The position numbers and the translations under genes were made by a program. The notes under the pieces are model-generated. The model ran no database searches. It saw nothing but the letters and a program-made list of their open reading frames with translations, and was not told where the DNA came from. Positions 22,826 through 44,500 of a stretch of 64,000 nt of DNA are shown piece after piece. Origin of the DNA: Polytrichum commune (taxonomy: Eukaryota > Streptophyta > Polytrichopsida > Polytrichales > Polytrichaceae); assembly GCA_950295325.1 (NCBI GenBank), contig OX485804.1, forward strand, positions 42,222,001 to 42,286,000, written 5' to 3'. Position 1 is the stretch's first letter. The number at the start of each line of letters is the position of its first letter.

Positions 22826-24010
22826 TTTCACTAACTATTATCCAAACCTAACACTGTTGATGTTGTAAAATGCAATGAATGCTCAAAGTAAAGTTTATCA
22901 AAAAAGAGTATGTAAACAATCCTTCTCCTTGCCAAGGTAGATGAATCAACCATCAGACGCCCTGTTCCAAGACAGAACACATTAAGGTCAGGCAAAGTTT
23001 GCTGTCACGTGTTCTTCTCATTAAACCCAAGGCCTTAACCCCTAAACACTTTTAGCATGTTCACACCAATTGTGTATTCTCACTTTATACTGGATGATAT
23101 AAAATCTCCCTTAAACTTCCTTCCAAGTCACTTTGTGAGGACGTCAAGAAGTGCAACCTTCAAGACAACAAGCATCACAGTCCACAAAAAAAGGTCACAT
23201 CACAATGTCTTGTCACGTTCTCCAATTTCAAGATATTGAATGTATGAGAGGCCCAAATGGAGCCCCAAATGCGTTTAGAAGTTAACCCGGATCCCATCCC
23301 ATGGGACTCTAATGTTAATCCACCCAAGTCCGGAAATAGAATAGTACTCTGATGGGTGCCGTTCCTAGCACTTGATTTATAGTGAACCCTTTCACCTATG
23401 GTCCACCCAATCATAGTGCATGTATCAAAAGGTATAAAGGTAAACCAATATTTTCAACCTTTCATTTGAAAGGAGGCAGTAGTCTAAAATTCTCGTGATG
23501 ATCGTTTCTGGATTACATATAGACCAACAACTCGAAGATGAAGCATCAACAGCATAATTCACGCCAGTGGCAACATCGGAGTCTTCTCTTCTCTTCTAGG
23601 TAACTCACAAATTCAAGCCATCAAAGCTAAAATGCAGAAGAAGCTAAAATGAGTGAGGCACGAGTATCACTTGATACCAAGAAATAATAGGAGGATGAAT
23701 TCCCTTACCGACTTCGACAAAGAGAAGACCCAAAGGCGAAGTGTAGATTGTAGAATGACCTAAATGCGACAACCGAACTCCTAATGGACTGTACACATCC
23801 AAAAAACACAGGAAACGAAGATATTCAAGTAAGATCCAGATCTCAAAAGCGTAAGATGAGGTGATGTGATTCACCTGAACTTCAAGAAGCAGTCCGAAAT
23901 CCCGCGACAAGGTAGCGATTGCGAATCAGAGAGCGCAAGACTTTTAGGGTTTAGGCCTTTCCTTCTCAAGAATGAATGGGAGAGGAAGGTTCTCGCACAA
24001 AAGACACCCA
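22826..24010 (-). promoter_or_regulatory. Probable 5' leader of CCT6 with non-coding first exon and telo-box
   Basis: On the minus strand about 24005-23875 reads like a non-coding first exon, pyrimidine-rich and ending in a good donor ('aagttcag|gtgaat'). It contains AAACCCTAAA at 23952-23942, a telo-box common in plant genes for translation and protein folding. An intron of about 1 kb would then run to just upstream of the ATG at 22825. Inferred from motifs only; the acceptor is not certain. Confidence 0.4.
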
Positions 24011-24800
24011 CATCACTTAACTTGAAATATAGGAAAATAAATCTAATGATGCAATGCATGTAGTTTTGAAGTGTTTAAACCTTAACTTCCTTGAGTGTAT
24101 TGTGGTTTCATTATTTCATCTCAAAACTAAGTTTTCTAGAGCTCAATTTTATTGTACCTTAAAAAAAACTTGTTGCTAAATATTTTAAGATCACATCAAT
24201 ATTGTAGCACAATAATTAGTAGTTTTCATTATTTGTTTACAATCGATTCAGAATCATTAAACTTCAAGAAATTGTGATGAATATATGCAATGAAATTATA
24301 GTCCAAACTTTGAAGATTGTATTAAGAAAATATATATACACTTTGAGACAAGAAAAAAAGTCCATGAAAAACTAAAAAAAATCAATCAAAATAATATGAA
24401 GTTACTATACATAATAATGTATCAACAAAGGGAAAATTTTAGTTCATTCTTGACTTTTAAGAATTTGTGTGAACAACCATCTTTTCATATTGGAATGGGA
24501 CCATCACCATTGACAAGACTAATTTCATGAGGAACACAACGATACATATTGTGACCCTCCTAGCACCTTCCGATTAAATGAATTTGCCTTTAAGAGTCAT
24601 TTATAAGCCCAAAACATGCCTCTCATGAAGTAAGGGTTGAAATCACAGGGTCCGGGTGGGTTGTCCAATTAGGGCATGCTAAGTGGGGTTGGAAGTTTAT
24701 GTTTTAGAGTGTGACGCTAATTCATGATGTATTTAATATTTAGGAGGAACTATCCATTCATAAAGCTTATATATTGTGTGGAAAATAATATTTGTCCTAT
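24011..24800. other. AT-rich intergenic sequence left of the transposon block
   Basis: Very AT-rich with no coding frame or recognised repeat. It marks the change from the left gene cluster to the transposon-rich region. Confidence 0.4.
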
Positions 24801-24802
24801 AA

Positions 24803-25337
24803 ATAGCAATCATGTGTCACTGCAGCTCGAGTACCAATCACCATTAATAATTACAACTAAAACATGGCAAAAACACACATAAACAACACACCTCCACAAA
24901 GAAGGAAGATAGTCAAACTCTTGTAAGAGCTCTAATTCTCTCTTCAAATGCACATAATGAATCAAGTTATCTCTCACTCTATCACGGGAGAATCCAAGAG
25001 TGTAAATAGCGGGAGAAGAACTCAATATTTATTTCAAAAACATGCAATTTTCACCTCACACAAGCTCTCTTCACACACTCACTCACAATGCTTGATTTGG
25101 CAAGAATGTCAAGTCAAGAAGGAGGCTCCTTACTTAAGAGCATCTCTCCAACTTCTAATATTCATCCATCCAAATCTAAATGGATGAAATCCCACGGATA
25201 AGGTGTGGCCATCGACGCCGCATATCGTGACAGTTGTTGTGTAAATAACAATCGTGTGTCACTGCATCTCGAGTATCAACTATCATTAACAAATGCAACT
25301 AAAACATGGTAAAAACACATTTAAACAACAAACCTCC
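24803..25337 (-). repeat. LTR-like repeat with flanking 95-base direct repeats (copy 1)
   Basis: A stretch of about 330 bases (24902-25232) recurs at 41165-41503 in the same orientation, sharing 'tcacctcacacaagctctct', 'cacactcactcaca' and 'atgaaatcccacggataagg'. Read on the minus strand it starts TGTCACGATATGCGGC (TGTTACGGTATGCGGC in the other copy), like the 5' end of an LTR. Related blocks of about 95 bases ('tgtgtcactgca.ctcgagta' to 'aacctcca') flank it at 24807-24893 and 25246-25337. Probably a solo LTR or nested fragments. Confidence 0.45.
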
Positions 25338-25480
25338 ATATGCCCCCCCTTAGCTAACTATGAAGTCCCGCCAAGCAACTAGGACCAGTGCCAGTCCAAA
25401 GGGCATGGATAATGAAGAATCGTTCTGCAACCAACGAGTGTAGTGAATGTCATTCCAAGGAACTATAGGTTGGGTGCAAT

Positions 25481-28400
25481 CACTATAAAAAAACATGTTT
25501 TTTTTAACGTTGGAGAAAACGGCTATCGGTGTTCACTTTAACATGGACTTTGTTTTTTTGGACGTCACCTAAAATCCGTTAAAATTGACGAGCCAAAAAC
25601 ATGAGGAAAACGGATATAACATATCCAATTTGAGCTCGTTTTTTATGTGACATCATATGAAACATGGTTTTCCATGGTCCCCAGACATGGACACATGGAG
25701 GACATGTCGGCTTTATGTAAGCAAATGATGTGCTGGCAGTGCCAGGAGGGCCACTTTCACATGGAATTCGCCGCTAACGTGGGTGACACTTGGACCCCAT
25801 AAAGAAATGACGTGGACATTGCATTTTGTGGAAATGCAATTGTAATCGTTGTTTTGGTTGACGTCATGTGGGACGGGAGAATGTTATGGGGGACAACATG
25901 TTCGTCCTGCAAAATTTGTGATATTGTAGTTTTTGGCGTTGTTTTCGAAGCCATCATGTGTGGTGGGAGATTGTGATTTCCTTCATCGTCTTCATCACGA
26001 TATGTGTCGATGGTGTCATGAACAGGAGACAACATGTCTAGGGACTCGTTTTTCATAATAACATCCCGTCAATATGAATGTCGACGTTGACATGCATTGG
26101 CGTTGTCATGGACGCTTATATGAACGTATGGGACATGCTGTTGATGTCAAGGTGGATGACATTCTAGATGAGCATGGGCATATACATAAAGAACATGTAC
26201 AAAAATTATTGCAAAGCACACATATGTTGCCATGAAAAGGGTTTTATTCATTTCCATAACATGTTGCAACTAGAAAGCTGCAGTCCTACATAAAACATCG
26301 CTACCCGTTGGCATGTGCTATAGAACAAACGGAAAAAATAATGTTCACGACAAAATCACTAGCCATCCCAAAATTGACGTTGCATGCATCTATGCTACCT
26401 CATTGTCATGGATGCATGATGTCGTTTATACTATGCATAGAACTTGAAACTACTCCGATATCAGCCGCGGAATGTCTGCTGACATGTCATTTCTTCTTTT
26501 GCTCGTCCGATTTCGTGGCACTCCCTGCATGCTACATCCCAAAACGATTCACATAGCACCACGACGAGTGTTAGTGAGTTTCTATCCATACATTACCAAT
26601 ATATGCAGACTATGTAAAAAAAATTACATTAACAAATGAAAATACATTTTCCTTACCTTTCCTGGATTTACCTCCTGCAAATACGTTACACATTCATGTT
26701 TTTAGGAAGATAATTCGAGACATGAGTGAGCGTTATGGCTGACATCCACATCTATCGAACTAGACGTCTGAACATGTGTCCGATTAAACAAGCAGATGTC
26801 TAAAAAAACGGGTGTACGACGATGCGATATTGAATTCGATGTCTCCTGCCATGTTCGATAGGATCACAATCACAGTTGGGGTTTTGCATCAAATATTTCA
26901 ATTGATGGCTGGGTTCTATCTAAGGGTGGTGGTATGCGATACCTGCTCTACCACATTCTCATCGCCTGTGACTACAATTTCCTCGCCCGCTGCATGCCCG
27001 TCATCGTTCTCCACACCGGACTGCCCAACCCTTTCATCCACTGCGTCCTCCGCAATATCAGCAATGACGTCGGACTCCACTGCCTTGTTCCCATTCTCGT
27101 GCACTATCTCCTCCACCACCGTGGTGATATCCGTGGTGACATTGGCGTGGTCTTCCGCCTTGTTCATGGTGGCATCGGCCGCAACATCTTTGATGACGTC
27201 GCTGCAAACAAGCAATGCAAAAGGACATGGCACGTCCACAATGCTCACAACATTCAACAGGGGAGGGAGGGCAGGTTCCGGCGGGACCGTCTTCGCTTCC
27301 GCTGTGGTCGACATCAGCACTGATGTATCCACCAACTTCGCAGATGACGCTTGCGTTTGCATGTCATCGCCTGCAATGCCTTGTTTAGTGAAGAACGGGT
27401 GGTTAGTTGCAAATGAACCGGTTGAGTTCGAAAAACAATCGGTTGAAGTTGAAGACTTGCCTCACCTGGAAACTAGTTGAAGATTCGTCGATTCGCCACC
27501 TCTCCACCCTACCGAAGCAACAAACGTGGCTGCACACCTGCAACACCTTCAAAACGTTGACATGCATTGGTTTAGGGTTGTGATAAATTGTAAGCAATTG
27601 AATACAATTATCTAATTCCATAATATTCTTTTTTGAACATATGTACAGTCCCCTCCATTGCAGTTGACATCGGAACGGAGGACTAGCCTTGGGAAAGTGA
27701 TTGCAAAATGTGCAACAGCTGCAAATTTGACCTAGTGTAGTGCCTAGACTTCTCAACACAAATAGGTAGGGCAAGAATCACCTTTTTTTGAAGTGGGTTT
27801 TGCAGGAGGCTCTCTTCTGGAGCATCCGGCATGGAGCTTTGCGTCCCCCCCCCCCGCTGCTGCAAACGCAAGCTCCTACAGCGGTCCATTCCGATTGCGT
27901 CGAATGTGATGTCAACGCATTCGAATGTGATGTGCGTCGACGCCAACATCGACGGTCTCTTGTCTCCACATTGCGGTACGAGATTGTTGAGAAGCATGGC
28001 GGTGTCCTACTCATCTACATCCACGACGTGAGGCCATTGCCATCAAGGTAAGTGATGCGTTTGCACTCTTTGAAAGAAGGTTCACCGTTTTATTTAGGGT
28101 TTTAGGGTGTCGCCCAACCTTTAAGGGCACTTCCACAGCACCAGGTGAAATGGTCGACCTCTGGGACACGTGGAAAATGGTCGACACGTGTCACAGTGGA
28201 CGTCTACCCATACATTGGCAAAGACATGTTTTGTATTATGTAAATTTAAATGAAGATACCAATAAGGACACCGCATGCGTATTTTGTATTCTATCAATTC
28301 CGTCTTCCGGTAAATAAATAAAAATAGCATGCTTTAGATATCGTGAAATGTTCATTGACATTTAACATGCAATTTGGATGTAACTACTACCATGGATAAG

Positions 28401-28958
28401 TGGTTTCACAATATCAATTGATTTAGTTCTTAGTTATTAGCATGTTCCGGAAAACATGCATGGTTTTTTTTATGTATTTTTTCATTTTTTTTAATCCAAT
28501 TGCTTTCAAAGTGTTCCCATGAATTCCAAGAAGTATATGGAGTGTTCGAGTAATTAATCATTTATTTGGGGTACTCATTCATCGATGATTCCATGACATT
28601 CAATGTCAATATATGTTGCCGCCCGTCATCGCATTTTTTGTGGTGCGGACAGCATTTTCTGTCTACCCGCCACATCAGCCATGATTGTACATGCAATGCA
28701 GACGTGCATAGTGGTTGATGTGGCTTTTTCTCCCCTAGACACCCTCCAGCATAACGTATCCATGTTTTACCCAACACCCACAAAGACACGTACATCTAAA
28801 ATAACATTGCCACGTTTTCAAATGTGAACATGCATGTTTCCAACAACATCGCATTTAATTCGAAGTATTGCGCACGTTAACTGCCAAACATACTGACGTC
28901 TTACAAAACAATACACGTTTTCTGAAAACAACCCCTAAAACGCCAGTTTCTTATAGTG
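25481..28958. mobile_element. CACTA (EnSpm/CMC) DNA transposon, complete ends, probably non-autonomous
   Basis: Left end CACTATAAAAAAAC at 25481; right end, read on the minus strand, CACTATAAGAAAC ending at 28958. The imperfect terminal inverted repeats of 12-13 bases both start CACTA, and the element is flanked by a 3-base duplication AAT (25478-25480 and 28959-28961). Both features are diagnostic of the superfamily. Both subterminal zones are rich in short ACATG-containing words, as expected for transposase-binding repeats. Size 3478 bases. No TNPD-type transposase (DDE/tnp2) was recognised inside, so it probably depends on a partner in trans. Confidence 0.85.
26916..27362 (-). CDS. Acidic Val/Asp/Glu-rich open frame inside the CACTA element
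   Basis: A 148-codon frame encodes a low-complexity acidic protein with many VI-AD, DV and EE steps and no Cys/His or catalytic motif. The opposite strand is also open over the same region. It could be an exon of an element protein or a captured host fragment. Base composition is more GC-rich than the rest of the element. Not recognised; may not be translated. Confidence 0.25.
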   Translation of the reverse strand: MQTQASSAKLVDTSVLMSTTAEAKTVPPEPALPPLLNVVSIVDVPCPFALLVCSDVIKDVAADATMNKAEDHANVTTDITTVVEEIVHENGNKAVESDVIADIAEDAVDERVGQSGVENDDGHAAGEEIVVTGDENVVEQVSHTTTLR

Positions 28959-29149
28959 AATGTGAACCCCACCCTTAATCGCCTATGATGTTTGGCCATC
29001 AAATTCCAAAGAATTAAATCCACTGTCTCATGTTTGATCACGTCTGTAAACTATAACCCATTATTTTCCATTTGGGCATGCATAATACGGTGAAAGCCAC
29101 ACAAAATCATTGAATACAATTGGAGAAAGCACCAGACACCGAAGATTCT

Positions 29150-29285
29150 CGACAATGAGGACAACTCCACTATCTAGATGGTAAAGAAATCAAAGGTGTC
29201 CTCAAGCATGCCATGTGCCAACCACGTTGACACTGATTACACAAGAGTATAGTAGCCGCTCATTTCTTCTTCCCACATACAAAAC
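29150..29285 (-). pseudogene. PHD-finger-like C-terminal domain of the gypsy integrase
   Basis: After the integrase C-terminal segment the frame reads CFVC, then LLCNQC, GWHMAC and WSCPHC. This is the C-x2-C ... C-x2-C ... H-x2-C ... W-x-C-x2-C spacing of a Cys4-His-Cys3 PHD finger, including the usual Trp two residues before the last Cys pair. Two in-frame stop codons (TGA near 29260, TAG near 29168) break it. PHD fingers generally bind histone H3 tails; here such a domain could have guided integration, by analogy with integrase chromodomains. The function is inferred. Confidence 0.7.
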
Positions 29286-30308
29286 ATGGAAGACCCTCTG
29301 GCATGACAACCAGTTCATGATGAACTGTACCCTCAATGGGTAGATGACATGGGGCACAATTTTTTGAATGCTCGCGACATTCCCTACCATTCTTGTCTTC
29401 TAACAACAACAATCCACTCGGCAACACCTTCTTCACCCAAAGGATAGTGCACCCCACTCTGACATCCAATGTCGTAGGTGCCTCACGTTGGAGATAAACA
29501 TTATCCCCTTGTCGGAATCCCGACAACTGAGGTCGATAAGCACCACTGCAAATGTGTATATAACGCAATGTATCACAGTATTAAGCAATGGACAAATTTT
29601 CCATAGCCATGGGTATGGCCTTCTGGAAGAATTGAGCCCGCTCCTGCAAGCACTCTGCCCAAATGTTTGGGTTATCCAAATCCACAACAGGAGCTAGTTT
29701 TTCTCGAATAAAATTCGGGACTATAGGCTCATGTTCATACACCAACTGATACGGCATGTAGGACGCCAATGAGGCATGTCTACCAAATCGAAAACCCATA
29801 GCAATCCAAGGCAACATAAGGTCCCGATCCCGGTGGCTTCCCCGAAGTAATCCATACTTCCTCAAGCCACGTTTGGTTGTCTGAGCAACCCGTTCAACCA
29901 AGCCATCCACCTCCAGATGATCCCGCAAGGTGGTACGGTGATCTATAAGAACCTTAGTACACAACTCCTCAAAAGCACCAAGGAACTCCCTCCCCTGATC
30001 CGTCAATACCTCAGCTGGTGCTCCAAATGTGCCAATACACGATCCAAAAAGGCCGCCGTGGCCAACTCTGCAAAGTTTTGGGATAAATCAACAAGCTTAA
30101 TCCACTTGCTAAAATGCTCTACCATCACCAACACGTACTTTGTTCCACGTGGTGTGACAACCAACGATCCTGCAAAGTCCAGTGACCAGCGGTAGTCCAT
30201 TTCCATAATATGTAAGGGTTGTAATTGTGGTGACAAGGTGTTGAAGCTAGACTTGACCCGGTCACAAACTTCACACCTCCCGACATAAGAAGCTACATGC
30301 TGATACAT
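29286..30308 (-). pseudogene. gypsy integrase (zinc-binding, DDE core and C-terminal region), broken
   Basis: Upstream part (30308-about 30030): H-x-C-x2-C zinc-binding remnant (CEVCDRV), then the first catalytic Asp in SLDFAG and the region RGTKYVLVMVEHFSKW. Second part (30006-29581): second Asp in TDQGREF and the catalytic-Glu region DGLVERVAQT, then the KYGLLRG segment. Third part (29568-29260): GDNVYLQREAPTTLDV and the LPSGLLLLEDKNGRE segment. A frameshift near 30030 and another near 29575 separate the three parts. The element cannot integrate by itself. Confidence 0.85.
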
Positions 30309-30784
30309 GCCAGTCCATCAATATTAGCCACGCAACATTGAATGTGTCATACGTATGCCAAAATGGCCAAGTTTCTTGTGCACTTCTCGCACCAAGGAGG
30401 CCCTATGACAATACGCCTTGTCCCATCCAACCACAATCAATATAACAAACCATTATCTCAACGGAACCTTGTTATTCGATGTCCAATCTTGTCCCTTTCC
30501 ATCGCCGAGATAGACAAGGAAAAAATTCCATATTGAAGCTTATGCAATACGGAAGATCCTTCCATATATCCGCAATAGCTTGAGGTCGATCAGTCTCATT
30601 ATCGGAGCCCTATATCAAAACCTCAACAGCAGAGCCAAAAAACAACTGGTACCACCTCTCGATCACAATCCCCATGCCACATGGCCCCAGTCAAGTCCTC
30701 ATCTGAAGAACTTGGATTGCGTGAGAGTCCATCTACATCCAAATTGGTAATCCCGACACAGTGTATCACCTCAAAGTCGTACTC

Positions 30785-31900
30785 TTAGAGCAATAAAACC
30801 CACCTGGTGAGTTTGCTAGTTAGCTTATCCGACTCCATGAGCCACCGTAAAGGTTGATGGTCAGTCACCAAAGTAAAGCGCTGACCATATAAATATGGCC
30901 GGAAATGGGTAATAGCCCACACCGCCGCCAGAGTTCCTCCCTCGTAGGACGAATAATTGGCCTCCGTAGTATTGTTGCTTCGTGAAGCATAAGCAACAAC
31001 ATATTCCTGGCCAGAGTCATCCTTCTGAGTGAGAATTTCTTCCAAATCCAATGAGCTCCAGTTTATATGAAACTGGAAGGATTTAGAGACATCCAGACTT
31101 TGAAGCACTGGAGCCACACTTAGTCTTTGCTTAATTGTCTCAAATGTCTGTTGTTGCTCACAACCCCAAGTCCAAGGTTGGTCCTTACTCGTGAGAATGG
31201 TAAGAGGCTTGGCAATCAAGCTAAAGTTCTTGACGAATCGATGGTAGTAATTCGCCAAGCCCAAGAAAACACGAAGTCTCGGCACATCGACTAATGTCGG
31301 AATCTTTTGCAAAGCGTCCACCTTAACTTGCTGTACTCCAAGACCTCCTGGAATAATCATATGACTTATATATGCTAGTCCGTCATGGAAAAACTTGCAT
31401 TTCCTATGGTGCAAGCGCAATCCTCACCACCGCAACTGTTCAAAAACGGCTTGCAGACGCCCCACATGCTCCTGTGGTGTCTTGCTAAAGATGATCATGT
31501 CATCAATGTAACACCGAGCAAAGGACAAGCCAGAGAGGACTTGGTCCATCACTCTCTGAAACTCAACAGGTGCATTTTTTAGGCCAAATGAAAGAAATTT
31601 CCAATGATATAGTTGATCATTCCTATCCTGATCAACTCCCCATAATGCGGTTTTCACTTGATCTCCCGCAAGTAATGGGAGCTAGTAATAGCCGGATCTC
31701 AAATCCAGGGTGCTAAAAGCTCGAGAATATCTTATGGCATTGAACAACTCCTCCAAGATTGACATGGGATATCGATCCAACTTGGTCTTTTGGTTAACTC
31801 AACGGTAATCCCCACACATCCTCTACTCCGTCCAATTGCCAAAGATATCCTTCTTCGATGGCATAACCGTAGCACAAGCATACTCCCCATTGGAGAGTTC
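30785..31900 (-). pseudogene. gypsy reverse transcriptase and RNase H, broken
   Basis: Reverse transcriptase (about 31900-31400): the strand-transfer core shows CYIDDMIIF, a YxDD catalytic box, after FLSFGLKNAPVEFQRVMD. In-frame stops occur near 31800 and 31680 and a stop lies between 31424 and 31420. RNase H (about 31130-30790): the tether reads YYHRFVKNFS and DQPWTWG, and the catalytic part ends with VTDHQPLRWLM. Both are typical of Ty3/gypsy in order and motif. Confidence 0.9.
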
Positions 31901-32399
31901 AATCAGCCTTGCTGCTAAGAGCTCTCGGCAATACTAAGCCTATAAGGTCTCTGAAAAATAGGATGGTCGTCCTCCAACTTAATGTGGATGGGTTTTCCTT
32001 TATAGCCTTTAAGATCTTAAAGGCTAAAAGAAAAATACCTACGGTACGAGCGAATGAATGCTCGTACCTTCCATGCCTTAGCACCAGTGAGATGAGGGCC
32101 TAATTCCAATGGCCAATCGTCAAACTCTGTGGTCTCTCTTTCCACCAAAGGGGAACCACCTGATGCTGGCACTGACTCTAACTGCTATAAAGAGGAAGGG
32201 GCATTAACCATGCCTCCAACCTTAGTGCCACCAATAGAATTTGGCCTCTCTTCATCATCACCAATATGTAATGATGAAGCCACCACCGGAGGCGAAGAAG
32301 CCAAAGGAGTATAAACTTGTTGAGCTCAAAGCTCTTCCATCACATGCTGCTCGAATCGAGAGATTCGTTCGGCTTCTCCAACCATGGCCTCAATTACTC

Positions 32400-33690
32400 T
32401 TTCATGGATGTGGACCGTTGTGCCCCCTGAATAGAGTCCTCTCCTCCCAGAGACAACAAATGGTCATCATGATGTTGTTGCAATACAAGGCATAAACCAA
32501 TAGTCCACATCATGGTATTAAGATCCATGGTTTGGCCCAACACGAAGCGCCATTGGCCCTCATAAATGCCAAAAGTTGTTGTGGTGCTTGTGAAAAATCC
32601 CATGGCACGCTCCCATTTGTCAGCCAATGGCTCAGTATGGGTTTTAGTGTGATCATCCCATACAATACCAGGTCCCCGAACGCAGAATGCGAATGACTAT
32701 GGGAAAGTCATAAAGATGGGGAAGGCCCTCCATGGTGCTCCTACTTTGTTGACCAATGTCAACGAGGGTAAATTATCTCGAACAACCGGCAAAAAAATCC
32801 GGTGTGGATCCAAAATGTCATCCACCTTTTGATGCAGAAAAATGTTACAGTTAAAGTGGATAGCGGTGCGAGGTTGGTCCAAAGCCACTGAGGCCGGTGG
32901 GAATAAGAACCAAGGCTCGCCGCATCCACAAAAATGGGATCACCGAGGTGTTGACAAACATAATGCATGCCTTCCAACATCTTGTCCTAAGAATCTCCCA
33001 ACAGAGGTACATTCTCGAATATGTACCCTGGAAGGGAAGGTCGGTGAGCATACCACCATTGCATGAGTCGGATGAGGTTCCCAGAAAAATTAGATTTGGG
33101 ATCCTTCAACCCTTGGCTGGCTCTAGCACGTGAGTGGCTCTGGCATGGCCATCCTGCGATGACCATATCCATAGGACCCAATTTGCGTAAGTCTGCCTCA
33201 CTGATAAGTGCAACATCACGAGGGAGATGTGCAAAACATCCACGAATGATAGTTGGATCCAACTGTTGTGGTTACAACACCATCAATTGGTGGAAATGGT
33301 GACGGACCACACGGGTGGACACTTGATTGTCATCCACATAGACATAATATTGAACTATGAGACCAACCTCCAACACAGCCGCCACTCCTGTCCCAATGCC
33401 CTAAACGGTTCCACCAAAGTGATCCCCTTGTTTGGTGGATACCATGAGATAGGATGTGCCAACGTCGATGGGGTATCACGGATGAGTAGTGTTGTAGAAC
33501 CGAGAGAGATGACAATGTCCTTACACCTCCGGAATAACTCAACGGAATCGCACCAGGGAGGAAGAGGATCTTTGGAATGGTGTACCAATGCACCCTTAAG
33601 TGCCATCTCCCATTGATCCTTAGCTCTCTCCATGAATACCAATGACTCCTCCAATAATGCGGAAGTTCCCAATAGCACCACATCCAAAAA
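32400..33690 (-). pseudogene. C5-cytosine DNA methyltransferase domain inside the retrotransposon, broken
   Basis: Lies between protease and reverse transcriptase on the element's coding strand. Motif I (AdoMet binding) reads GIGTGVAAVLE near 33400-33365, followed by YVYVD. Motif IV, the catalytic Pro-Cys loop, is IAGWPCQSHSRA at about 33157-33122 (PCQ near 33148-33140). Motif VI is IFENV near 33022-33008. A VDAASL...HRPQWLWTNL block near 32925-32860 fits motif VIII, and AMGF then FVLGQ...MDLN near 32610-32520 fits motifs IX-X. Motif order I-IV-VI-VIII-IX-X is that of genuine C5 methyltransferases, of the general Dnmt type. Stops (one near 33275) and frameshifts (near 33400, 32985 and 32760) make it non-functional. 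Methyltransferase genes inside retrotransposons have been reported from charophytes and dinoflagellates. Confidence 0.85.
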
Positions 33691-33843
33691 CCATGCATAA
33701 TGGTGTTATGGACGCGGCCGTTGCGAATGCCAGAATAATAAGTTCCCTACGGCCTTCTCCAGCCGACCAACCTAATTGGATTTAAACCTTCTCAGCCCAG
33801 TTGTCCAAACCAGAACCAAGGGGGTAGAGTGCTTGCTGACCAA

Positions 33844-34329
33844 CTAAAATGTACAGTTGGTCACAACTGTCACCGCACACCTGAGAAGAAGAAATGCATG
33901 TGGATCTCCAAGCTTCACGTGGAAGCTAAGCTGCAATGGCTTCCGCATGTAACCAGTGGTCCGCTCCATATGGCCAATAAAGGTGACGATGGTAAATGGG
34001 CAAAGAGCCAAGTCGTCGGCCGTCAACCGTAACTCTTGAACAAGTTTTTTGCCGATTATAACTGGTTGTGCCCCCGAATCCATCATCATACATTGGGGTG
34101 CAACCCAAATAGGATTGCCCCCAATCCAATCGACCACCAAAATGCCGGTATCATTCACCATACACATGACGCCATGTTGAATGCCACGGCACTTGCAAGT
34201 AGGCCTAGCAACTACATCAAACAAATAAATTGTTCCCGCGGATTCTGGTGAGTCATAAGATGTAGTCAGGCCCCTATCATTTGAGCTGTATGTGCTAAAA
34301 GATGCAATGGCCTCCGCTACAAGCTTCAC
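33844..34329 (-). pseudogene. gypsy aspartic protease region
   Basis: The frame includes the protease signature MDSGAQPVIIG (D-S-G catalytic box) about 80 residues in, preceded by CKCRGIQHGVMC and VDWIGGNPIWVAP. It sits between Gag and the methyltransferase domain, the expected protease position. The link to the methyltransferase is broken near 33690-33840. Confidence 0.7.
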
Positions 34330-34984
34330 TCGTTGTTTGACCGTTTCATCGGGATCCTCAGTTGCAGGGAATTATGCGGTGGTTTGAGTCACAGTGAGAG
34401 GAGACAAAGATGCCTTGCCTTCTAAATCCTATTTGCTAGGTGTAAAATCTTAGCCAGTTGGATGTCGGATAATGACCACATCATTGCTATAAACAAATGT
34501 ATATGCAACACCTTGGATGCCAATGTGTGCACCATGTTGGTTGCCGGATTTGGAGCCTCCATGCTCAAAATTTGACCACTGATAGATTGGACAACATATG
34601 CCAATCCAAAAGACAATGGCAGACGTGCGTGACCAATCTTATCAGCGGGGCCATTTTCCCGAGCTCGTAAGTTCTCCACAAACTCCCATGTGGTCAAAGG
34701 TGTGGCTCATGATACAGATTGAGCACGTGCACAACTGCCGAACTCACCACCTCCCCCAAAGTCCCAAACATATAATAATCCGTAGTGGACATAGTAGCCT
34801 TAGTTCCGGATTTTGCCGATGATTCTAAGATTTAGCTTGAGGACACCAAATTCTTAAACCTTTCTTCCAAGGCTCCAAGATTTGCCTCCAACGTCTTTTC
34901 CCGTTCGGAAGAAAGACATTTTTTCTGGATGGAGAACGAAACAATTTTCCACCGTGTGATTGTTCCATCCACATTGAGAACACT

Positions 34985-35700
34985 TCAACTACTTTCGTAA
35001 ATGTTTACCAGTCTCCTTCGTTGACGTGTTAGTGGGAACAACTGGGTTTCGCTTCGGATTATTCGCGGTGTGGGCATGCCTTTGCTTTGAAGGACAATCC
35101 TTCTTAGCGTGGCCCGACTGCCCACAAGACCAACAATATAAGTTTTTGTCCCCCTGTACATCTGCCAATCCTGCAGTCGCAACCGAAGTCTACCGGAATT
35201 TGTTAGAATCCACTAGCAAATACCAAATTAGTGGCATCGTGCTGACACAAGGCACGATTGCAATGTTTTACAACGGCAAATGCCTATGCAAATATCACCC
35301 ATCTACTATAATCCATAATGAAAGTGGGTAGAGCTAAGTCAATGAGGCGTTTGTCAATCTTTGACAAAAGGACCTTTACCAATTAGCTCTCTGCGAAAAC
35401 ACCTTCAGATTCCCTGGCAAATCTCGCCAACCTCGTGTGCATGGTACGAGGTGTATCGTCTTTCTCCGGCCGGAAGTCATGGATCCACTGCATTTGATCC
35501 CGACGGAAACTTCCGTATTCCTTCTCCAAATGGAGATGGAATTCATGTAAAGAATCAAAATCTGGCGGAACCCCTAAGGAACCTATTGCCGCATGGATAA
35601 CCTGGACATAACAAGAGAGTGAAAAGATTGGGCTCAATGTATTCGCAGATGTGGAAGCATGAACCTTCTCCTTAGGTTCACTAGGGAAAGGCCCCTCCAC
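34985..35700 (-). pseudogene. gypsy Gag remnant with CCHC zinc knuckle
   Basis: The 35700-35383 frame resembles the retrotransposon Gag core (DSLHEFHLHLEKEYGSF, then RDQMQWIHDFRPEKDDT and RLARFARES). Further on, at about 35130-35085 in another frame, CWSCGQSGHAKKDC gives the C-x2-C-x4-H-x4-C nucleic-acid-binding knuckle. Frameshifts separate the two parts. Confidence 0.75.
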
Positions 35701-37100
35701 ATTTACTACAAATACGCCCTCTCCTTACTCTATCTTAACCACATGAGCGACTGATGAAGTAAAAGTCGTGTTTTCCTTCAATTCAGAAACTAACTCCACC
35801 CAAGTCTACCAATACCACTTTACCTGACGAAACTTCATCTAATGAGCATCCCTTCACTTCTCATAAATCTGGAGCGTTTTGTGCTACAGATGTTGGGTTA
35901 ACGTTCGAATATATACTAGTCATTAAAACTGGTATTGCGTTGTCGCTTCTCCCTTATCCACATTCTAAACCAAATTTTCCAATATTGCAAGGAAATGGTT
36001 CCTATTCAAACAAAAAACCGGTCTCGGATACTTTCTCGTGTTTCTTCCACCATATCGTCAAAGATTCCTACCCAAAGAACTTGAGACCGAGTGGCAGTCC
36101 TCCATGCTGAAATAGGCTAAAAAACCTTGTCGGATGCTACCATTGGTTCAATGTCTGAAAAATCAGAGGATCGACCTTCTGATGCTCCTAAAGATGGAGA
36201 ATGATAATGTTGGCTTCAAGTTGTAACCATAGATTCACAATGGGTTCGGTCACTAGAGCCAACAACCTATTAATCTAATGTCAAGGTAAAATGTTAAAAT
36301 GTGAAAAACAACAATCACCTCTAACCACCATCAATCTTATGCTCTATTGGTGATCAATCCAACCTCACCATAAGGGAATACAAGCACCGCGCACTTGATG
36401 CACACACAAGGGTCTTATCAATCATTATTCCGACCTCACCCTCACGATACCCTATCACAAATTAGCCCAACACAAAATAGGACAATGTTGGCAACATCCA
36501 GCAACACAGCCCATCACGGGGAAAGGTACAACAACGAAATATAAAAAACAATGCATATGTTGCAGTAGATTCTCTTCCCCAAACAACAATTAAGCAAAAC
36601 TTGAAATTTACCGCGAACAACCGACATTCGCCTACGATAGGTGGTCAAGCGTGAGATACATTTATTGATGTGGAAAAGAATTGGCACATAAGCACATCTC
36701 TCATCTTCCCACTCAATATAAAAACTCCCTCCCACAACAATTCCCGGAATTTGTGTTGCTAAATACAATTTGACCTCAACAATTATGTCGTTATGTCAAA
36801 TGGTGATTCTATATGCCTTCAATGGAATTTTTTCGGCAATCCCATGCACATATTTCTAAATGAATCCCAATGACCGCCAATTTGCCCCAAAAAATTCAAG
36901 TATACGATTATTTGAATGCCGTCCTTTTATTTTTCTTTCAAGCAAAAGAAAATGAAAACCCCTTCTTATGCCAAGTACCTCTCTCAAGTTAATGTGAAAG
37001 AAAAATAAGCTAATCACAAATTCGTTGCAATCCTACGCCCTCTGCGTGTTTCTAGATATTTTGGCGAACTCTGCTTGCGATGCCTCACGTCATCCGAAAC
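35701..37100. other. Upstream part of the retroelement and flanking AT-rich sequence
   Basis: About 35701-36260 is probably the 5' untranslated part of the gypsy element. From there to 37100 I see no coding frame and no LTR whose partner I could find. Long-diverged repeats would be missed by eye. Confidence 0.3.
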
Positions 37101-37110
37101 CTAAATACCT

Positions 37111-37265
37111 GGGGTAAGGCGGAGGGGGCCAAGAAAAGGGCCTAGGCCCTGCCTAGAGAGGGCAAGGGGGTAGCAGGGTGGCAAAGGGGGTCCTAAGGGG
37201 GTAAACTAGGGAGGTTGCCTAGCTAGGGGGGTAGGTATAGGAAGGGGGGAGGAGAAGGGGGTGGT
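37111..37265 (+). repeat. G-run-rich tract (possible G-quadruplex cluster)
   Basis: More than ten runs of three to six G on the plus strand with short spacers such as 'caagggggtagcagggtgg' and 'ctaggggggtaggtata'. The irregular repeats look like a decayed 'aGGGGGta' minisatellite. It stands out sharply from the AT-rich surroundings. Confidence 0.6.
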
Positions 37266-37595
37266 AGACTAAAGTTATCTAAGAGAATTCAAGCTATCTA
37301 ATAGCTATTTAAGAGCAGTAGAACTCAAGCGGTGGACTGAAGGTCGGAGGAAATTTTGAAGGAGCGCAAGAGCTAAAGTGTTGATAATGTGTTATGGAGA
37401 AAGGCAAGTAATGCTTAATGTAGATAAAATTACAGAGTATGCGTAGATAGAATTCTCCATATGCCAAGAGAAGCAGAAGGTTTTCTTTATATAAAATAAA
37501 AAGTATTTTAATAAAATGAGAAGTGTCATTACTTGTCTTTATCTACTAAAATGCGTAGCCTTCCTTTCCTAACCTTAGACCTTCTCATCATGGAC

Positions 37596-37983
37596 ATCAT
37601 GGCGGGTGAAGAAGAGTGTCATCTAAGTCCCATTTAACGGTCTTCGTCTCCGATTATTTTCCATGGTTACATTTCGTAACTTCAAATCAACCATACGGGC
37701 TTTGTGTTATGTTTTCGATGTCACTTGCTTTGAAAGGATAAGATGATCACAGTCACGGCTCATTTGGTATGTTGTTGATATGTTTACTGTGGTTATTCTC
37801 TTTCTTCCCGCACTTATGTAGTCGATGGGCATACACTAGGTCTATCAATCGTTTAGAACCTACATGTCTCATGCACAACATGGCGGGTCAAGAAGAGTGT
37901 CCATTAAGTCCCATTTAGCGGTCTTTGTGTCCGATTACTTTAAATGGTTTGTATATTGTAACTCCAAATCAACAGTACAAGGC
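37596..37983 (+). repeat. Direct duplication of about 110 bases
   Basis: 37596-37706 and 37872-37983 share 'catggcgggt.aagaagagtg', 'aagtcccattta.cggtctt' and 'ccaaatcaac'-type blocks, 276 bases apart. Both copies are non-coding as far as I can see. Confidence 0.6.
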
Positions 37984-38683
37984 GAAATTTCCGTACGTGA
38001 AACTCTCAATCTCATGAGATTTATACGATTACGATACTCAAGTGTCGCATCACCCACTCTCTTACTATAGCAGATGTTACATTATGTATGTATATCAATT
38101 ACTGTTTTCAATATCGGTATTTGAGTTCCATGCCCAGGTCATGCTAAAGTTGGAACCGGCGATCTTTTTGTCCGCCCCCCATCTTTCTTCCTTGTTTGGT
38201 AAATATTATGAGTAAGGCGTTCAACCGATTGAGTTACTTCTGCGATTTGGTGCTACTGTCACGTTTGTTGAGGTTCTGCCTCACAGTCGATAGATATTGG
38301 TACAATACTACGAGTTGTCTGTATCGACACTGTAGACTTCGTGTGTCGGTGACCAATGAGTGCGTTTGATCCAGTGTCTGAAGCCTGAAGCAGGCTTGTT
38401 ATGACATAACTATTGTAACACGCCCTCGGTCCTGAATGTTGAACTCATCACAAGGTGGCTATTTGATGTCAACCATTTTTCACTCTTACGTCATGCATGT
38501 CACTGACGTAAATGTAAATGAACTCAGGGGCGTGCCAACCATTCTTGCCTTCCAACTTGTCAGGTAGTATTTACTGCAATAAATCCCTAGTAATCTTGTA
38601 TCTACTAGGTAAAGCAATTCCAGTATCATTTGCTTTAGTAGGAGCCTGGGTGAGTAGTGTATTTCTACTAATTCTAATCCCAA

Positions 38684-39300
38684 TTGTGTATGCTCTGGGT
38701 GCAGTGTGTTAGAACCGTGATAGCAGAACCCTACAATCAAACCAAACTGTTGATCTTAAATGTGCATGGTATACTTCTGGATACCAGCCTATTGACTCAA
38801 CCAAATCCAAATTGCAACATCCGTATGACCAAAAAAACTTACACACGTAGGTTCGTGTTCAGGCCATGGATGATGGAGTTCTTGGGCCGGTGTTTTAAAA
38901 TGTTCAAAATAACATTTTGGAGTACAAAAAGTAGTGAATATATGGAAGAGGTTCTACGGAAGATCCTACCAGTGTTCTCACATTTGGAAGGCCATATACC
39001 AATTTTCACGTGGTCAGCAAAGGATTGCGAGTTAATTCAAAAGAGTGATGAGGTTTCATTGTGGGGGAAACCCTTGACCAAGGTTTGGTAAAAATGACCA
39101 TGTTCGGATGCTACCAACACTGTTATTATAGACCATTATGAGCCTAGGATGGACTTCACCCCACAATCGAATGTAATCATTCCCCCCCTTTCTATGTTAC
39201 AAATCTGAAGGATTTATTTGAGGACAAAGATTATTTACAGAAAAATTTATGGCCAACTCTTCAAGGCCTCTATGTGCACCATGACGTTGGAAGTTTTTGA
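38684..39300 (+). pseudogene. Broken FCP1-homology (CTD-phosphatase-like) domain fragment
   Basis: From about 38744 the frame reads KLLILNVHGILLDT, matching the first motif of plant FCP1/SCP-like proteins, then VFRPWMMEFLGRCF, ITFWSTKSSEYMEEVL and WGKPLTKVW, all in family order. After 39091 the domain continues in another frame (TVIIDHYEPRMDF, where relatives have a TLLIDDSPYK-like motif) and then a third (YVTNLKDLFEDKDYL to the stop at 39300). Two frameshifts and loss of the nucleophile Asp (LNVHG instead of a D-L-N/D-x start) mean it cannot be an active phosphatase. Likely a captured or retroposed gene fragment in transposon territory. Confidence 0.65.
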
Positions 39301-39602
39301 TCCACTTGCAATCTATCCAGAATGCAAGCAGGGGTGTGTGAACTGAATCAATTTTCGAAGAATATGGCAAAGACTATTGTGGAGGCTCTAGGAGGTGAGG
39401 GGAGTTGTGAACTTGAAGTTCACAATGAACATTGTCCCCCCCTCCTCTTAGTTGGTCCATGACTAATTGAATTTCGATTTTACTTGCATGTGTAGGTGGT
39501 TCCCGGGATGGAATTGCGGGGAAGGGGTGCGAAAACATGGGATAGCACATTAGACAATACAACATTGCCTGCACGCCCGGTTTGTACAATCCATCCCTGA
39601 AC

Positions 39603-39735
39603 ATTTTTTGAAGTCATTTAGCAGTCATTTAGCAATCATTCGGCAGTCATTTAGCAGTCATTTAGCGGTCATTTAGCAGTCATTAAGCAATCATTCAACA
39701 GTCCTTAAGCAATCCATCCCTGAACATTTTTAGAA
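39603..39735 (+). repeat. 12-base minisatellite with duplicated flank
   Basis: About eight imperfect units of 'gcagtcatttag' (variants gcaatcattcgg, gcggtcatttag, gcaatcattaag) span 39612-39712. Nearly the same flank, 'aatccatccctgaacattttt', occurs before (39586-39607) and after (39711-39731) the array, as if the array expanded inside a duplicated site. Confidence 0.8.
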
Positions 39736-39743
39736 CCGTATAA

Positions 39744-40182
39744 ATGTCGTATGCATTGTTTGGTGTGGGTTTTTTAGTCCATTATGGAAGTGACATTGGA
39801 TGGCAACGAAAACATTGGTTAGTGCCACATGAAGCCCTGATTGCTGACACATTGCTAATTAGATACTTACATTGTATGAGGTATGCCATTGATTGTTTTG
39901 TGGATGGTGTATGGGTGCAGTTCAATGTTGGACAATCCGTGCATATGATGAGCCCGAAAAACAAGAGACGGAAGGTGGCCATTGGTAAAATCAGCGGTGT
40001 GGGGGTGTAGATAAGTTTCATTTTAAGGTCATTCCGGAGTTTTGCTACAAAGTGGACGTGACCACTGCTTACCTAGGTGACGTGAAACTTGCATATCCAC
40101 ATGAAGACGAAGACCAATGGGTAGTGAAAGATGTGGTGGGAGGGTGCACACTGTGGAATGAAAGGAACCTGAGAGCAACATG
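39744..40182 (+). pseudogene. Frameshifted coding fragment of unknown family
   Basis: The first frame (39744-40010) encodes about 88 residues including WVQFNVGQSVHMMSPKNKRR and ends in IGKISG. One base appears missing near 40005. In the next frame the sequence continues VDKFHFKVIPEFCYKVDV, then LAYPHEDEDQWVV and VGGCTLWNERNL, to a stop at 40182. The switch makes sense as one protein of about 145 residues, which suggests a real but broken gene. It is not recognised; the setting suggests a transposon-associated protein. Confidence 0.45.
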
Positions 40183-41160
40183 ATTTTCCTCCCATGTACT
40201 TATCAGGGAGGACATAGAGGGCTTCCGCATTGTAAACTCTGAACCCACTCAAGAACACACCCACGCATTTTCTTGGGAACTGAACAATAAATTTGAAATA
40301 TGTATTCTTTTTCAAATATAATCCCGACTCACCCATCGAGTCTCCATCTTTAATGCTTGAATGGTAGTTGCATGCTTGAAAGGTATTGTTAACGCAATTT
40401 CTGATTGTCATTGGCATGCATTGAGTAGCAATTTTGTCGTCGCTGAGGTCGACTTCTTCGCAGATTTTGTAGTCACTGTGAAGTTGAGATGGATGTTGAT
40501 TGTATATCAATGACTGCACAGATTTTGCAATGTAGTCATTGTTAACCATTCAAAGTCGCCTCGCAGTCAAAATGACATGACACAAATCCGTCGTGGCACA
40601 ATCATGGCCGCACAAAAAGCACAAAAATTTGTACCTGATGTCGAATTCTAGTCATTTATGTATTCACGTGGAGGTCTAAGTCATTACAAAAGACACGTGT
40701 ACCCCTGACACCTCGGCACACGCACTGAAATGTCTCACTAATGAAAGAGTAAACAAAGGCTCAATGTGGTCATAGATGCCATGAGCTGCAGCCACGAGCC
40801 AGCCAGGGGCTTCAGCTCCTCCGCCTCTCCTCTAATTTTTTTTCAAATTTTTTAAAAAAAATTGTGAATGAATTTTGAATGAACCGGTTTCAAGAATACT
40901 CCTCCCAAATTCAATGATGTGAAGTCAAGCTTGCAAGCGAACAAATGACAACAAATTCTGTGGACAATTTAATAATTCATTATCAAAATTGACCTTGATG
41001 TGCCATTCACAAGCAAACATTCTTCTTTTTGTTGCTCCGCAAATCTGTGATGTTCTTCGCTCTGACAATCCGCAACTTTGTCACTCCTTATCCTCACGCC
41101 CTTCCTTGCGTGTCATATCTCAAGAATGAAGAAGAAAAGAAGAAAATTGAAGGATTCTTG
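40183..41160. other. Intergenic, no gene recognised
   Basis: AT-rich sequence. A minus-strand open frame at 40073-40549 overlaps the preceding pseudogene and has no family features, so I do not call it. Confidence 0.3.
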
Positions 41161-41164
41161 CCAA

Positions 41165-41503
41165 GTGAAAAAGAAGAGAGTCAAACCCTTGTAAGAACTC
41201 TAATTATCTCTTCAAATGCACACAATGAGTCAAGTTATCTCTCATTCCACTACGGGAGAATTCAAGAATGTAAGTAGGGGGAGAAAAATTTAAGATTTAT
41301 TGCAAAAACATGTAATTTTCACCTCACACAAGCTCTCTCCACACACTCACTCACAAGGCTTGACTTGGCAAGAATGCCAAGCCAAGGAGGAGGCTCCTCA
41401 TTTAGGAACATCTCTTCAACTTTTAAGATTCATCCATCCAAATCTAAATGAATGAAATCCCACGGATAAGGTGCGGCCGTTGATGCCGCATACCGTAACA
41501 TAT
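41165..41503 (-). repeat. LTR-like repeat, copy 2
   Basis: Matches 24902-25232 along its whole length with scattered substitutions and ends at the minus-strand TGTTACGGTATGCGGC. No matching second LTR or coding region was found beside it, so it is probably a solo LTR. Confidence 0.5.
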
Positions 41504-44500
41504 TGTAGACTAGTTTTTATAGTATATTCGTACAAAGCGTGGATTCAATATGACATCTTTATTTTTTAGTACCTCTTGTTGTGAGATCGCTTTATGCTTC
41601 AATGTTTAGATTAGTGTCCTTTCATTTTTGTGAGAATGTAATGCTAAATACACTAAACATGATACTTAGTGCATAAATTACTATTTGGAGTTACACAATG
41701 CTATATGTTTTTACTATTGATGTTTTTTTTACCAAACACAACTACACTAAATATGATATTTTAGTGTCATATGGTATTTTATGTCACTATGGTAACTTTT
41801 CGGATGACACTTCTTATGAATGAGTTTACAAATACTATCATATATGATGGATGACTTCATTCATTGGCCAAAACCCTACCTTCTCTTGTCAAGAACTTGT
41901 GATAAAATATTGTCATGGATGATTGAAATTTGGATGAGAAATCACTTGGTAAGTGACAGTAATTGTAACACTGTAAATTTATAATCCCCCAATTTTTTTA
42001 CAAGGACTGACAAATAATGTTGGTTTAACATTTATTGTTGGTGACACTATACCACGGTTTGCAATTAGCATTGGGCAAGACATTTAGAATTGGTGACACT
42101 AAATATCATTTTAAGTGTATTAATGTTCTATAATGTCCAAACAACCAATTTGATATTTGTTGACAACTTGATCATTATGTTGATGTGTCTCACAAAAACC
42201 ACTACACTCCATTATTCTAGGGTATCACATAGCCAATTAATTCCATCTCAATGCACTTCTAGCCTTCTTATAAGCCTTTTTTCTTCATGGCCTTAATTTG
42301 TATTGCAGGATGTCCCCCAATTCTCACAAGAAAGTTCATTGCTTAGGGCCACTTCACACATGAGACTGAGAGCCCGTGATCATTACACTTCAAGCACTCT
42401 CATTGGTGGAAAAGGTAGAGTTGGTCCAAGTTTGCTTCACACTACGCTTGAGGAACCAATGAAGTATATGAATGCAAGATGGATGTAAAGTCTACATGGA
42501 TTCTTACATGGCATCAAATGGATAATGTTTCATGGTCACTTGGATTATTTCCAAAAACCACCTCTTGGAGGTAGGCCTAACACAAAACCATGAGAGCATG
42601 GCACTCGGAATGCTCACAACCATTGATTTCTTCTATTTTATCATGTGTGAGAACTCGCATGATTAGAAATTCATTGAAATAGCATTTGGTTGAAGGCCCG
42701 GTCACATGACTTCACACTATACTTGAAGATCCGTGACCACACTGCATGATTTTGGAGGTGTTTTGGGACGGCCTTTGGACACTTTCTTTTGGGCTCTCAC
42801 AATTTCATGGCGATGGCTTTTGGCTCGTGTGTGAAGTGGCCCTTATTACCATAGTATGCTTCTAGGTTCATTTTATTTTTGGGTCTCAACCAATTTGAGA
42901 TTAACACATGGGTAATTATGATCTTAAGATGTTTGACTTTAATTCTAGAATTTCCATGACATGTTCTTGTTCCATGGCTAGTTATGAATGTCTCCTCAAC
43001 ATTTCCAATGTTGTACCAGTTTTTTCCTTGTTAATTTATTCACAAAATCTCAAAGTCACACTATTATTCAGGAAGCACATACTTAGAGTGTGTCAGAAAA
43101 TGTCAGAATTTTACCCAACAAAATCTGACAGGAAGTTTTTGACACTAAATTTTACGAAATTTTGAAGACGTGAGATTTTTTGTTTATCCCGAAGCCAATT
43201 TAAAGACGTGCATAACATTATTCAACTTTAATTGAGAGTTTCAATTTCAAAAATGGACGGACTCTTGACCCAAAGCAATAACTATGAAATTAGGTGCAAA
43301 GATTGACAAGGTCTAGGGAAACCGGGGCCCAACTTTTAACTAATTATCGTTGGCGTGCATGGTCTTGGTGGGGTTAGAGCTTTGCGAGGGCCATGTGGTC
43401 GTTAGGTAGCAAGATAGACTAATACATGCAACCCCATATCATGAACTAAAGCCAATTTATCCAACCCACGGGGGGTGCACTTCATTGTCAAGTTGAACAC
43501 CACGTGCGATAAAACAAAATCTACTTTTTACATAAAGCATCACCAAAATGATTCAAAAGTTTATGATTTTTTTTTCATGAGTAGATATACATGGTATCTA
43601 TTACATAGTAAAAATTTGTAACCAAATTTGATGATTTGTGTTTTTTAATAAAACATACCGTTTCTAACTAGAATGACGCAACATTGAACTAAAAAAATTA
43701 CTACAAAAAATGAAGATGACTAAAAATTTCAAAAAAATATACAAAAGATATTACCAATGGTTATGTGTATGTAGAAAAAATATCATAATTTTAAAAATTA
43801 TCTATGGCATGTAATATAGGGTAGCAAACTTTTATCTCACGTGACTATGAAATGTAAGGGGGTGTGATCCCCCCGTGATCCAACCAATATCCAACATGTA
43901 CATCACTATGGGCCATGGCTAAGCAAGCAACCTACAACATTAAATTAAAGTATTGGTAGTAAGCTTAGCTTGCGCATGAGGGGTGCCATGACCATCAGAT
44001 TGTCAGTACCATGCCAGGGAATAAGAGGTTAGAATGAGGCTCCATATGGTTACTAGGGTTGTCTTTTAGCTAGCTACACACATTTGCCGGTGAACTCATT
44101 GTAGTAAGACTCAAATTTTCAACTTAATCTTTAGACCCAAAGCAACACATGGGAATTGTCCAAGAATTCTCTCTAACATATTCCCACGCCCACTGAAACT
44201 TCTCATGCAGCTAATTAATGTTATGTAGAGAGCATAAATCGACGCATTCAACTATTGGTTTCCAAATATGACAAAGTGGTACAATATTTTTGAACAATAT
44301 TTAGTTGTCCACACAATGTCTAAACTGAACCAAAAATAATACTAATGGGTACACACATTTTTTTCGTGCAATATTTTTCTGGACAAAGTAACTTGAAACT
44401 AAATACCTAGTGCCTACCTACTTCTTAGGTGTGCTCAATGACACTCTTCATCAACCCCTTACTTTTTTCTTTTTTATCTGGCTACTAGTAGCCACTTAGC

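Follow-up and report, generated by a model that had tools for sequence, protein, structure and literature searches.

The window, a stretch of DNA of 64,000 nucleotides, contains on its minus strand a decayed Ty3/gypsy element that extends from 24793 to 41500 (16.7 kb, including later inserts) and has ends of the TG...CA type. The ends were defined by comparison of 20 copies from the same genome, and the 4-bp target-site duplication AATA was found at both flanks (41501–41504 and 24789–24792). Given these ends and the AATA on both flanks, the element of the window is a complete insertion. Although decayed, it is in outline a complete Ty3/gypsy element. Its left end is formed by repeat A1 (41167–41500), which was 85.7% identical to the A repeat of one sub-family B copy. 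On the other side of the body are repeats B1 (25235–25336), A2 (24900–25233) and, at the right end, B2 (24793–24898), all on the minus strand like A1. The identities were 87.8% between A1 and A2 (328 columns) and 85.3% between B1 and B2 (95 columns). The repeat order is A1-body-B1-A2-B2, an arrangement of split direct repeats, and the sequence of the B1-A2 junction, which consists of the right end, two bases and the left end, resembles a circle junction. No ordinary LTRs were found in 25000–41000, a range that cuts off both true ends; in the window element as well as in the fetched copies, split repeats take the place of an ordinary LTR at each end.

The upstream coding part is a relic of ORF1 (32185–36230, minus strand) with Gag, two CCHC knuckles, a protease and a DNA methyltransferase (DNMT), which is collinear with the intact relatives P0060 and P0061. 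Residues 1–1286 of P0060 align to 36230–32403 on the minus strand in six blocks. One of the two CCHC knuckles exceeded the Pfam cut-off (PF00098, E=6.6e-5). The protease-like sequence at 34425–33850 matched PF13650 below the cut-off in the window copy (E=0.012); the same profile was above its cut-off in P0087 and P0091 and below it in the five P006x/P007x ORFs in which it was found. The C5-cytosine DNA methyltransferase domain, of DNMT3 type, lies at 32515–33426 (minus strand), has the motif order I-IV-VI-VIII-X and is interrupted by frameshifts and stops. ORF1 is followed at its junction with ORF2 by a TAG (32185–32187, minus strand), next to which is CAG TTA, conforming to UAG CAR YYA. ORF2, on the same strand, encodes a reverse transcriptase (RT) core (31364–31828; PF00078, E=5.1e-25), an RNase H (30788–31093; PF17917, E=5.7e-29), an integrase in two frames (29584–30317) with an H2C2 zinc-binding end (PF17921, 7.8e-5) and an rve core (PF00665, 2e-5), and, at its C-terminus, a PHD finger (29152–29286; PF00628, E=4.2e-9, above the cut-off). 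The RT and RNase H matches exceeded the Pfam cut-offs. Both integrase matches were below them in the window copy, and the integrase is complete in other copies. The pol order RT-RNase H-integrase, a Gag with CCHC knuckles accompanied by an aspartic protease and the short duplication all place the element in Ty3/gypsy. Moreover, the RT of copy L021 was closest to Ty3 RT (7.1e-73), followed by 8r0s, an 'enzymatic polyprotein' (5.4e-45), with retroviruses weaker. The anatomy of the element, that is its layout, repeats and duplications, is thus described with near certainty.

A sequence-only reading of this DNA had recognized methyltransferase motifs (I, IV, VI and others after them) on the minus strand at 32400–33690, between a protease and an RT, in a copy that it called dead. 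The motifs and their order were confirmed. The domain does lie inside that span, of which about 33426–32515 is the domain proper and the remainder is linker on either side. Its position between protease and RT also held, with a weak match for the former (E=0.012) and a strong one for the latter (5.1e-25), and the frames are indeed interrupted by stops and shifts. The Pfam DNA_methylase profile, which had been proposed as a check, matched a one-frame piece of the domain (X at stops) with E=6.3e-6 and 26.3 bits against a cut-off of 22. The earlier order of protease, DNMT and RT stands, to which Gag, the zinc knuckles, the PHD finger, the ends at 41500 and 24793 and the junction stop, all absent from that reading, are now added.

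The element has also been enlarged. Its 3' untranslated part contains a later insert of 3.48 kb (25480–28958) that is foreign to it and has ATT at either side; the insert ends, CACTATAAG...TTATAGTG, are of the CACTA...TAGTG type, and it is probably a CACTA-type DNA transposon. In the 5' part, 37051–40826 is swollen by extra sequence to 3.8 kb, compared with about 0.8 kb in copy L023, and a tandem array (11 bp x 9.1) lies inside this expanded part at 39612–39711. Elsewhere in the window, two long uninterrupted ORFs were found on the minus strand, one for a SecA-type protein of 925 aa (10987–13761) and the other for a TCP-1/cpn60 chaperonin subunit of 534 aa (21233–22834). If the host is a plant, such intron-less ORFs are odd and would be retrocopies or products of intron loss. 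Two further tandem arrays are 346 bp x 3.2 (50357–51482) and 212 bp x 2.0 (15389–15809).

Copies in the same genome and the junction stop

The genome searched was a 407.8-Mb assembly of 64 contigs, mostly in C1–C7. Its host is probably a plant, as judged from the types of genes near the element and from the bryophyte relatives, and these two lines together with the seven large contigs point to a moss. All 123 scored matches to PF00145, of 353 candidates, were above the cut-off, and all 128 scored with the DNMT domain of sub-family B, of 580 candidates, matched at identities from 100 to 65%; both counts are lower bounds. Thus, more than 100 relatives are present in the same genome. Nine of the PF00145 matches belong to open frames whose length is exactly 1386 aa. 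From the 123, 20 copies were chosen for their long open frames and therefore do not represent the family fairly in age or intactness. They comprised two sub-families, A (13 copies) and B (7 copies), with ~78% DNA identity over ORF2. Excluding the variable 5' part, the identities of sub-family A copies to L011 were 96.8–99.3% and those of sub-family B copies to L021 were 93.5–99.2% in long blocks, except that L028 had a long block of 89.8%. In 9 of the 10 copies L009–L018 (L017 being the exception), all of them from sub-family A, a degenerate tandem repeat of ~144 bp was observed upstream of ORF1, in the 5' untranslated part.

Both ORFs were open in 10 of the 20 copies, with ORF1 open to the junction stop and ORF2 of 1045–1048 aa throughout; among these ten, L018 was without the usual N-terminus. 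The remaining copies had shifts or stops, and in L022, L026 and L027 ORF1 was truncated ahead of the junction TAG. The identities between A1 and A2 were 97.4–100% in the 16 of 20 copies in which they were measurable, six of them being at 100%. Compared with the 87.8% of the window element, these values indicate that the window copy is old and many others are young. Better-kept relatives, with open frames and near-identical repeats, were therefore found; from the window alone, it had been suggested that active ones may exist. The family is large and recently active, and the DNMT3-type methyltransferase is a standing part of its proteins.

The broken frames of the window copy could also have come from an artefact, in which a gypsy relic contains an unrelated methyltransferase fragment by accident or the assembly was wrongly joined. 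Protease-DNMT followed by RT was, however, found in 20/20 fetched copies, and relatives on many contigs have DNMT and pol in single ORFs. This recurring layout, which bears out the earlier expectation that methyltransferase and gypsy pol occur together elsewhere, led us to reject a chance neighbour or an assembly artefact, the probability of which we regard as negligible.

Exact 4-bp duplications were found beside TG...CA-type ends in 20 of 21 elements, the exception being L026. Despite the DIRS-like repeat arrangement, such duplications are the behavior of a DDE integrase. DIRS elements use a tyrosine recombinase and are not known to make a target duplication. Membership of the present family in DIRS was rejected, given its rve integrase and 4-bp duplications. 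In 4 of the 20 copies (L009, L010, L019 and L028), the right-hand side had a single B instead of B-A-B, with the 4-bp duplications still kept; these single-B copies are perhaps the product of recombination between B1 and B2.

In the copies of this genome, ORF1 encodes Gag-CCHC-CCHC-protease-DNMT and ORF2 encodes RT-RNase H-integrase-PHD. The PHD finger was present in 17 of the 20 fetched copies, and ORF2 was broken in the other three. In the open copies, the two ORFs are in one frame and are joined at a single TAG. In all 21 elements, including that of the window, this TAG shares the frame of ORF2 and is followed by CAR YYA, the six bases being CAATCA, CAACCA, CAATTA or CAGTTA. CAR YYA after UAG was reported to be essential for readthrough in TMV, and rice gypsy elements include readthrough candidates, according to the accessible text of that report (PMC2754532). 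Similar to the leaky stop of tobamoviruses, with which the stop and the following six bases match in 21/21 elements, the junction UAG is probably leaky, as judged from its sequence context. Different from tobamoviruses, the stop here divides Gag-protease-DNMT from RT-integrase and so separates the DNMT from the RT. Since the DNMT is upstream of the stop, it should be produced in the amount of Gag and not in that of Pol. Unlike the copies of this genome, the database relatives P0087 and P0091 have Gag, DNMT and pol in one ORF.

Comparison of the window element with L023, a related copy and not its ancestor, showed that cytosines were read as T at 22.7% of CG, 22.0% of CHG and 14.6% of CHH positions, whereas A/T transitions amounted to 6.7%. 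The corresponding figures for the young pair L021/L023 were 4.2, 3.1 and 2.5%. The C-to-T excess is consistent with prolonged CG and CHG methylation of the old copy, by an enzyme of either the host or the element. This decay would also suit a role in which the DNMT helps the host or limits the element itself, with pre-silencing of new copies slowing transposition, as has already been proposed for such elements in the part of the literature available to us (PMC5890265). The open, near-identical copies argue against any lasting restraint of the family, and we consider self-limitation improbable.

The methyltransferase, the PHD finger and their relatives

The one-frame DNMT piece of the window had 25 matches in the PDB at E<=1e-3, all of which were DNMT3A or DNMT3B, and 59 matches in the protein database at the same threshold, of 227 candidates, with identities of 41–82%. 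A family profile made of ten domains placed DNMT3A at the top (3.2e-22), with DNMT3B and 3C next. The same profile matched 4onj (2e-11), HaeIII (2.2e-8), DRM2 (9.2e-8), HhaI (1.1e-7) and DNMT2 (4.6e-5) more weakly. 4onj, labelled as a DNA methyltransferase, is presumably the tobacco DRM. Against both 4onj and DRM2, the best stretch was confined to profile positions 1–127 and lay at the end of the chain, as is expected of a permuted enzyme. The motif order of the family, in contrast, is unpermuted from I to X, as in DNMT3 and unlike DRM. Moreover, pLDDT values mostly exceeded 90 in the catalytic part of the AlphaFold model of P0065, and a structure search with this model gave 741 matches, of which the 50 listed were all of the DNMT3 family, with 21–24% identity. 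By its sequence and predicted fold, the family enzyme is thus of DNMT3 type. An origin from DRM, DNMT2 or a bacterial enzyme was rejected, all of these being weaker in the family-profile search. The vertebrate enzymes DNMT3A and DNMT3B, the closest of solved structure in both sequence and fold, share the unpermuted motif order. Different from them, the family has its PHD finger on the other ORF, and neither ADD nor PWWP was found in the ORFs of seven relatives (Pfam, E<=0.1).

The type of the enzyme also bears on whether it acts on DNA at all. As part of a Gag-level protein, it might methylate RNA or be a Gag accessory that binds nucleic acid, DNA methylation being secondary, and RNA methylation was raised by de Mendoza and co-workers for a dinoflagellate LINE enzyme, in the part of their paper that we could consult (PMC5890265). 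Profile and fold, however, are those of DNMT3, DNMT2 is far weaker (4.6e-5), and the catalytic Cys and the ENV motif are mostly retained. We therefore hold such a role to be quite improbable. Among 64 full-length domains, the catalytic Cys was kept in 62 and lost in 2; Glu and Asn of the ENV motif were found in 64 and 61, respectively, and the two Arg of motif VIII in 63 each. The Pro of motif IV was found in 57 of the 64, and motif I had its second Gly in 32, which counts against methylation by the element of its own DNA.

A codon model was applied to 11–12 copies chosen for open domains, because simple counts of dN/dS are saturated between the sub-families. Its omega values were 0.20 for the DNMT, 0.15 for the protease, 0.14 for Gag, 0.09 for the PHD finger, 0.05 for the integrase and 0.04 for the RT. 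Simple counts within sub-family A, all from few changes, put dN/dS at 0.50 (DNMT), 0.08 (RT) and 1.15 (the short PHD finger). The sequence comparisons thus place the DNMT under purifying selection. Its omega is nevertheless the highest of the six regions and five times that of the RT, which again weighs against self-methylation. Together with the catalytic Cys lost in 2/64 domains, it speaks for a passenger, captured and hitch-hiking without being used. An omega of 0.20, the preservation of motifs in 64 divergent domains and the occurrence of two pol positions, each common to many divergent relatives, make a mere passenger very improbable.

The PHD profile matched 100 PDB sequences at E<=1e-3. 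The best 60 of these 100 were led by CHD4, KMT2D, KDM5-type, ATXR5, WSTF and PHF12, followed by PHF21A, BAZ2 and UHRF1. Many of these proteins are readers of unmodified H3.

Relatives in the database comprised 68 long proteins (P0060–P0127). Of those with a named host, 11 belonged to Marchantia polymorpha, some of which were clearly broken, and one each to Sphagnum fallax and Closterium sp.; the rest came from other contigs and EukProt. No protein labelled K. nitens was among the database matches of the window piece or in the searches that gave P0060–P0127. The domain order was DNMT before RT in 13, protease-DNMT with the RT outside the ORF in 29, RT before DNMT in 21, DNMT before integrase with the RT outside in 2, copia-type in 2 and unclear in 1. 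For instance, P0091 (2358 aa) has the DNMT ahead of the RT, and P0119 (2201 aa) has it between RNase H and integrase. A PHD finger was found in 20 of the 68, namely in 19 RT-first relatives and in the DNMT-first P0091, many ORFs stopping before a PHD finger could appear; the copies of the present genome are further DNMT-first elements with PHD.

The RT-first group formed one clade in both trees, with a support of 99/98 for the DNMT (23 rows) and 100/100 for the RT (18 rows). A phage collection yielded 372 weak matches to P0065 among 50,697 records, none of which covered 80% of P0065. In IMG/VR, a single-protein scan found no relative and a profile scan found 15 weak loci, of which nine ORFs were read and six were taken as outgroup. 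In the tree with these six phage-contig enzymes, the family DNMTs and human DNMT3A were on one side (100/99), and DNMT3A joined two other long branches, P0127 and the copia-type P0125. The AU test did not reject a tree that holds the retrotransposon DNMTs together (p 0.448, or 0.119 when the copia row was left out). The two DNMT positions may reflect one capture that later moved or two captures.

Proposed use of the enzyme and comparison with described systems

The features above suggest a mechanism in which the element would methylate its own DNA. Ribosomes would mostly halt at the UAG, so that the DNMT would be produced along with Gag and enter each particle in many molecules, and the RT, integrase and PHD finger would be produced by readthrough. 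The DNMT could then methylate the double-stranded copy DNA, either ahead of integration or during it, and the integrase-borne PHD finger could steer insertion through the histone H3 tail, most likely in its unmodified form. A new copy would land already marked, in chromatin that normally carries such marks. For this mechanism as a whole, from Gag-level DNMT through own-DNA methylation to PHD-steered insertion, we see an about even chance. A broader proposal is that the element both writes and reads chromatin. In it, a Gag-level DNMT set by the leaky stop would mark the element's own DNA before integration, an integrase-linked PHD finger would direct it to chromatin with unmodified H3K4, and this pairing would have been kept across streptophytes in one split-repeat gypsy lineage while the DNMT moved within pol. 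We offer it tentatively, with doubt outweighing confidence.

Gag-level production would also yield much free enzyme, and with more than 100 copies in the genome the DNMT might act in trans, methylating host genes, rival elements or silencing loci and so blunting defence. The location of the PHD finger on the integrase protein and the retention of the DNMT in the Gag-protease polyprotein suggest use in cis instead, and action in trans appears unlikely. Cytosine methylation is a classic host weapon against retrotransposons, and here is an element that has long kept an enzyme of its own together with a histone reader. Self-methylation by the element, if it occurs, would mean that a parasite has turned the mark to its own use, a question that can now be asked in a living plant. 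Many open copies and two sub-families within one genome make it testable, and the proteins of Marchantia and Sphagnum indicate that bryophytes carry such elements.

Among described elements, KnitGypsy-Dnmt3 from Klebsormidium nitens comes nearest (de Mendoza et al., 2018; PMC5890265); the following comparisons with it apply as far as the accessible parts of that paper go. Similar to the present family, it has an intron-less DNMT3-type methyltransferase in a gypsy polyprotein, and both are under purifying selection, with a Ka/Ks < 0.2 for KnitGypsy-Dnmt3 and an omega of 0.20 here. Judging from the legend of its Fig. 4, and by our reading of which DIRS arrangement is meant there, a DIRS-like repeat arrangement is also common to both. 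Different from KnitGypsy-Dnmt3, whose host is a charophyte, the present family is found in Marchantia, Sphagnum and the genome of the window. The UAG CAR YYA junction and 4-bp duplications are not among the features described for KnitGypsy-Dnmt3, and the PHD finger of the present family has no counterpart in the main text of that paper, where 'PHD' occurs 0 times. Methylation was not obtained from the KnitGypsy DNMT in a published yeast test, which its authors judged inconclusive; the outcome counts against self-methylation. SymbioDIRS-Dnmt3 and SymbioLINE-Dnmt of dinoflagellates likewise are retrotransposons bearing a cytosine methyltransferase (PMC5890265, accessible parts). They belong to other retrotransposon classes, whereas the present family has an rve integrase and target duplications.

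Chromoviruses are gypsy elements with a chromodomain in pol that is thought to target insertion (PMC3350952, as far as its text was available). They share with the present family a chromatin-reading domain in gypsy pol, which in the latter is a PHD finger instead of a chromodomain and is accompanied by a DNMT. On DNMT3, gypsy, bryophyte and retrotransposon, the openly readable literature, exclusive of subscription papers, preprints, figures and supplements, yielded only PMC5890265. Relative to that literature, the land-plant range, the leaky stop, the PHD finger, the two DNMT positions and the integrase-type duplications are new. DNMT3 members within streptophyte and dinoflagellate elements of the LTR Copia and DIRS kinds were reported in 2025 (PMC12344493, accessible parts). 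Among our copia-type relatives, P0126 of Closterium looks, by our reading, like a gene model spanning two neighbouring elements. P0125, from an ENA contig, is a Copia-type polyprotein in one long ORF, in which a DNMT3-like domain separates the CCHC knuckle from the protease; its capture looks real and would be a third DNMT position, in a second retrotransposon superfamily.
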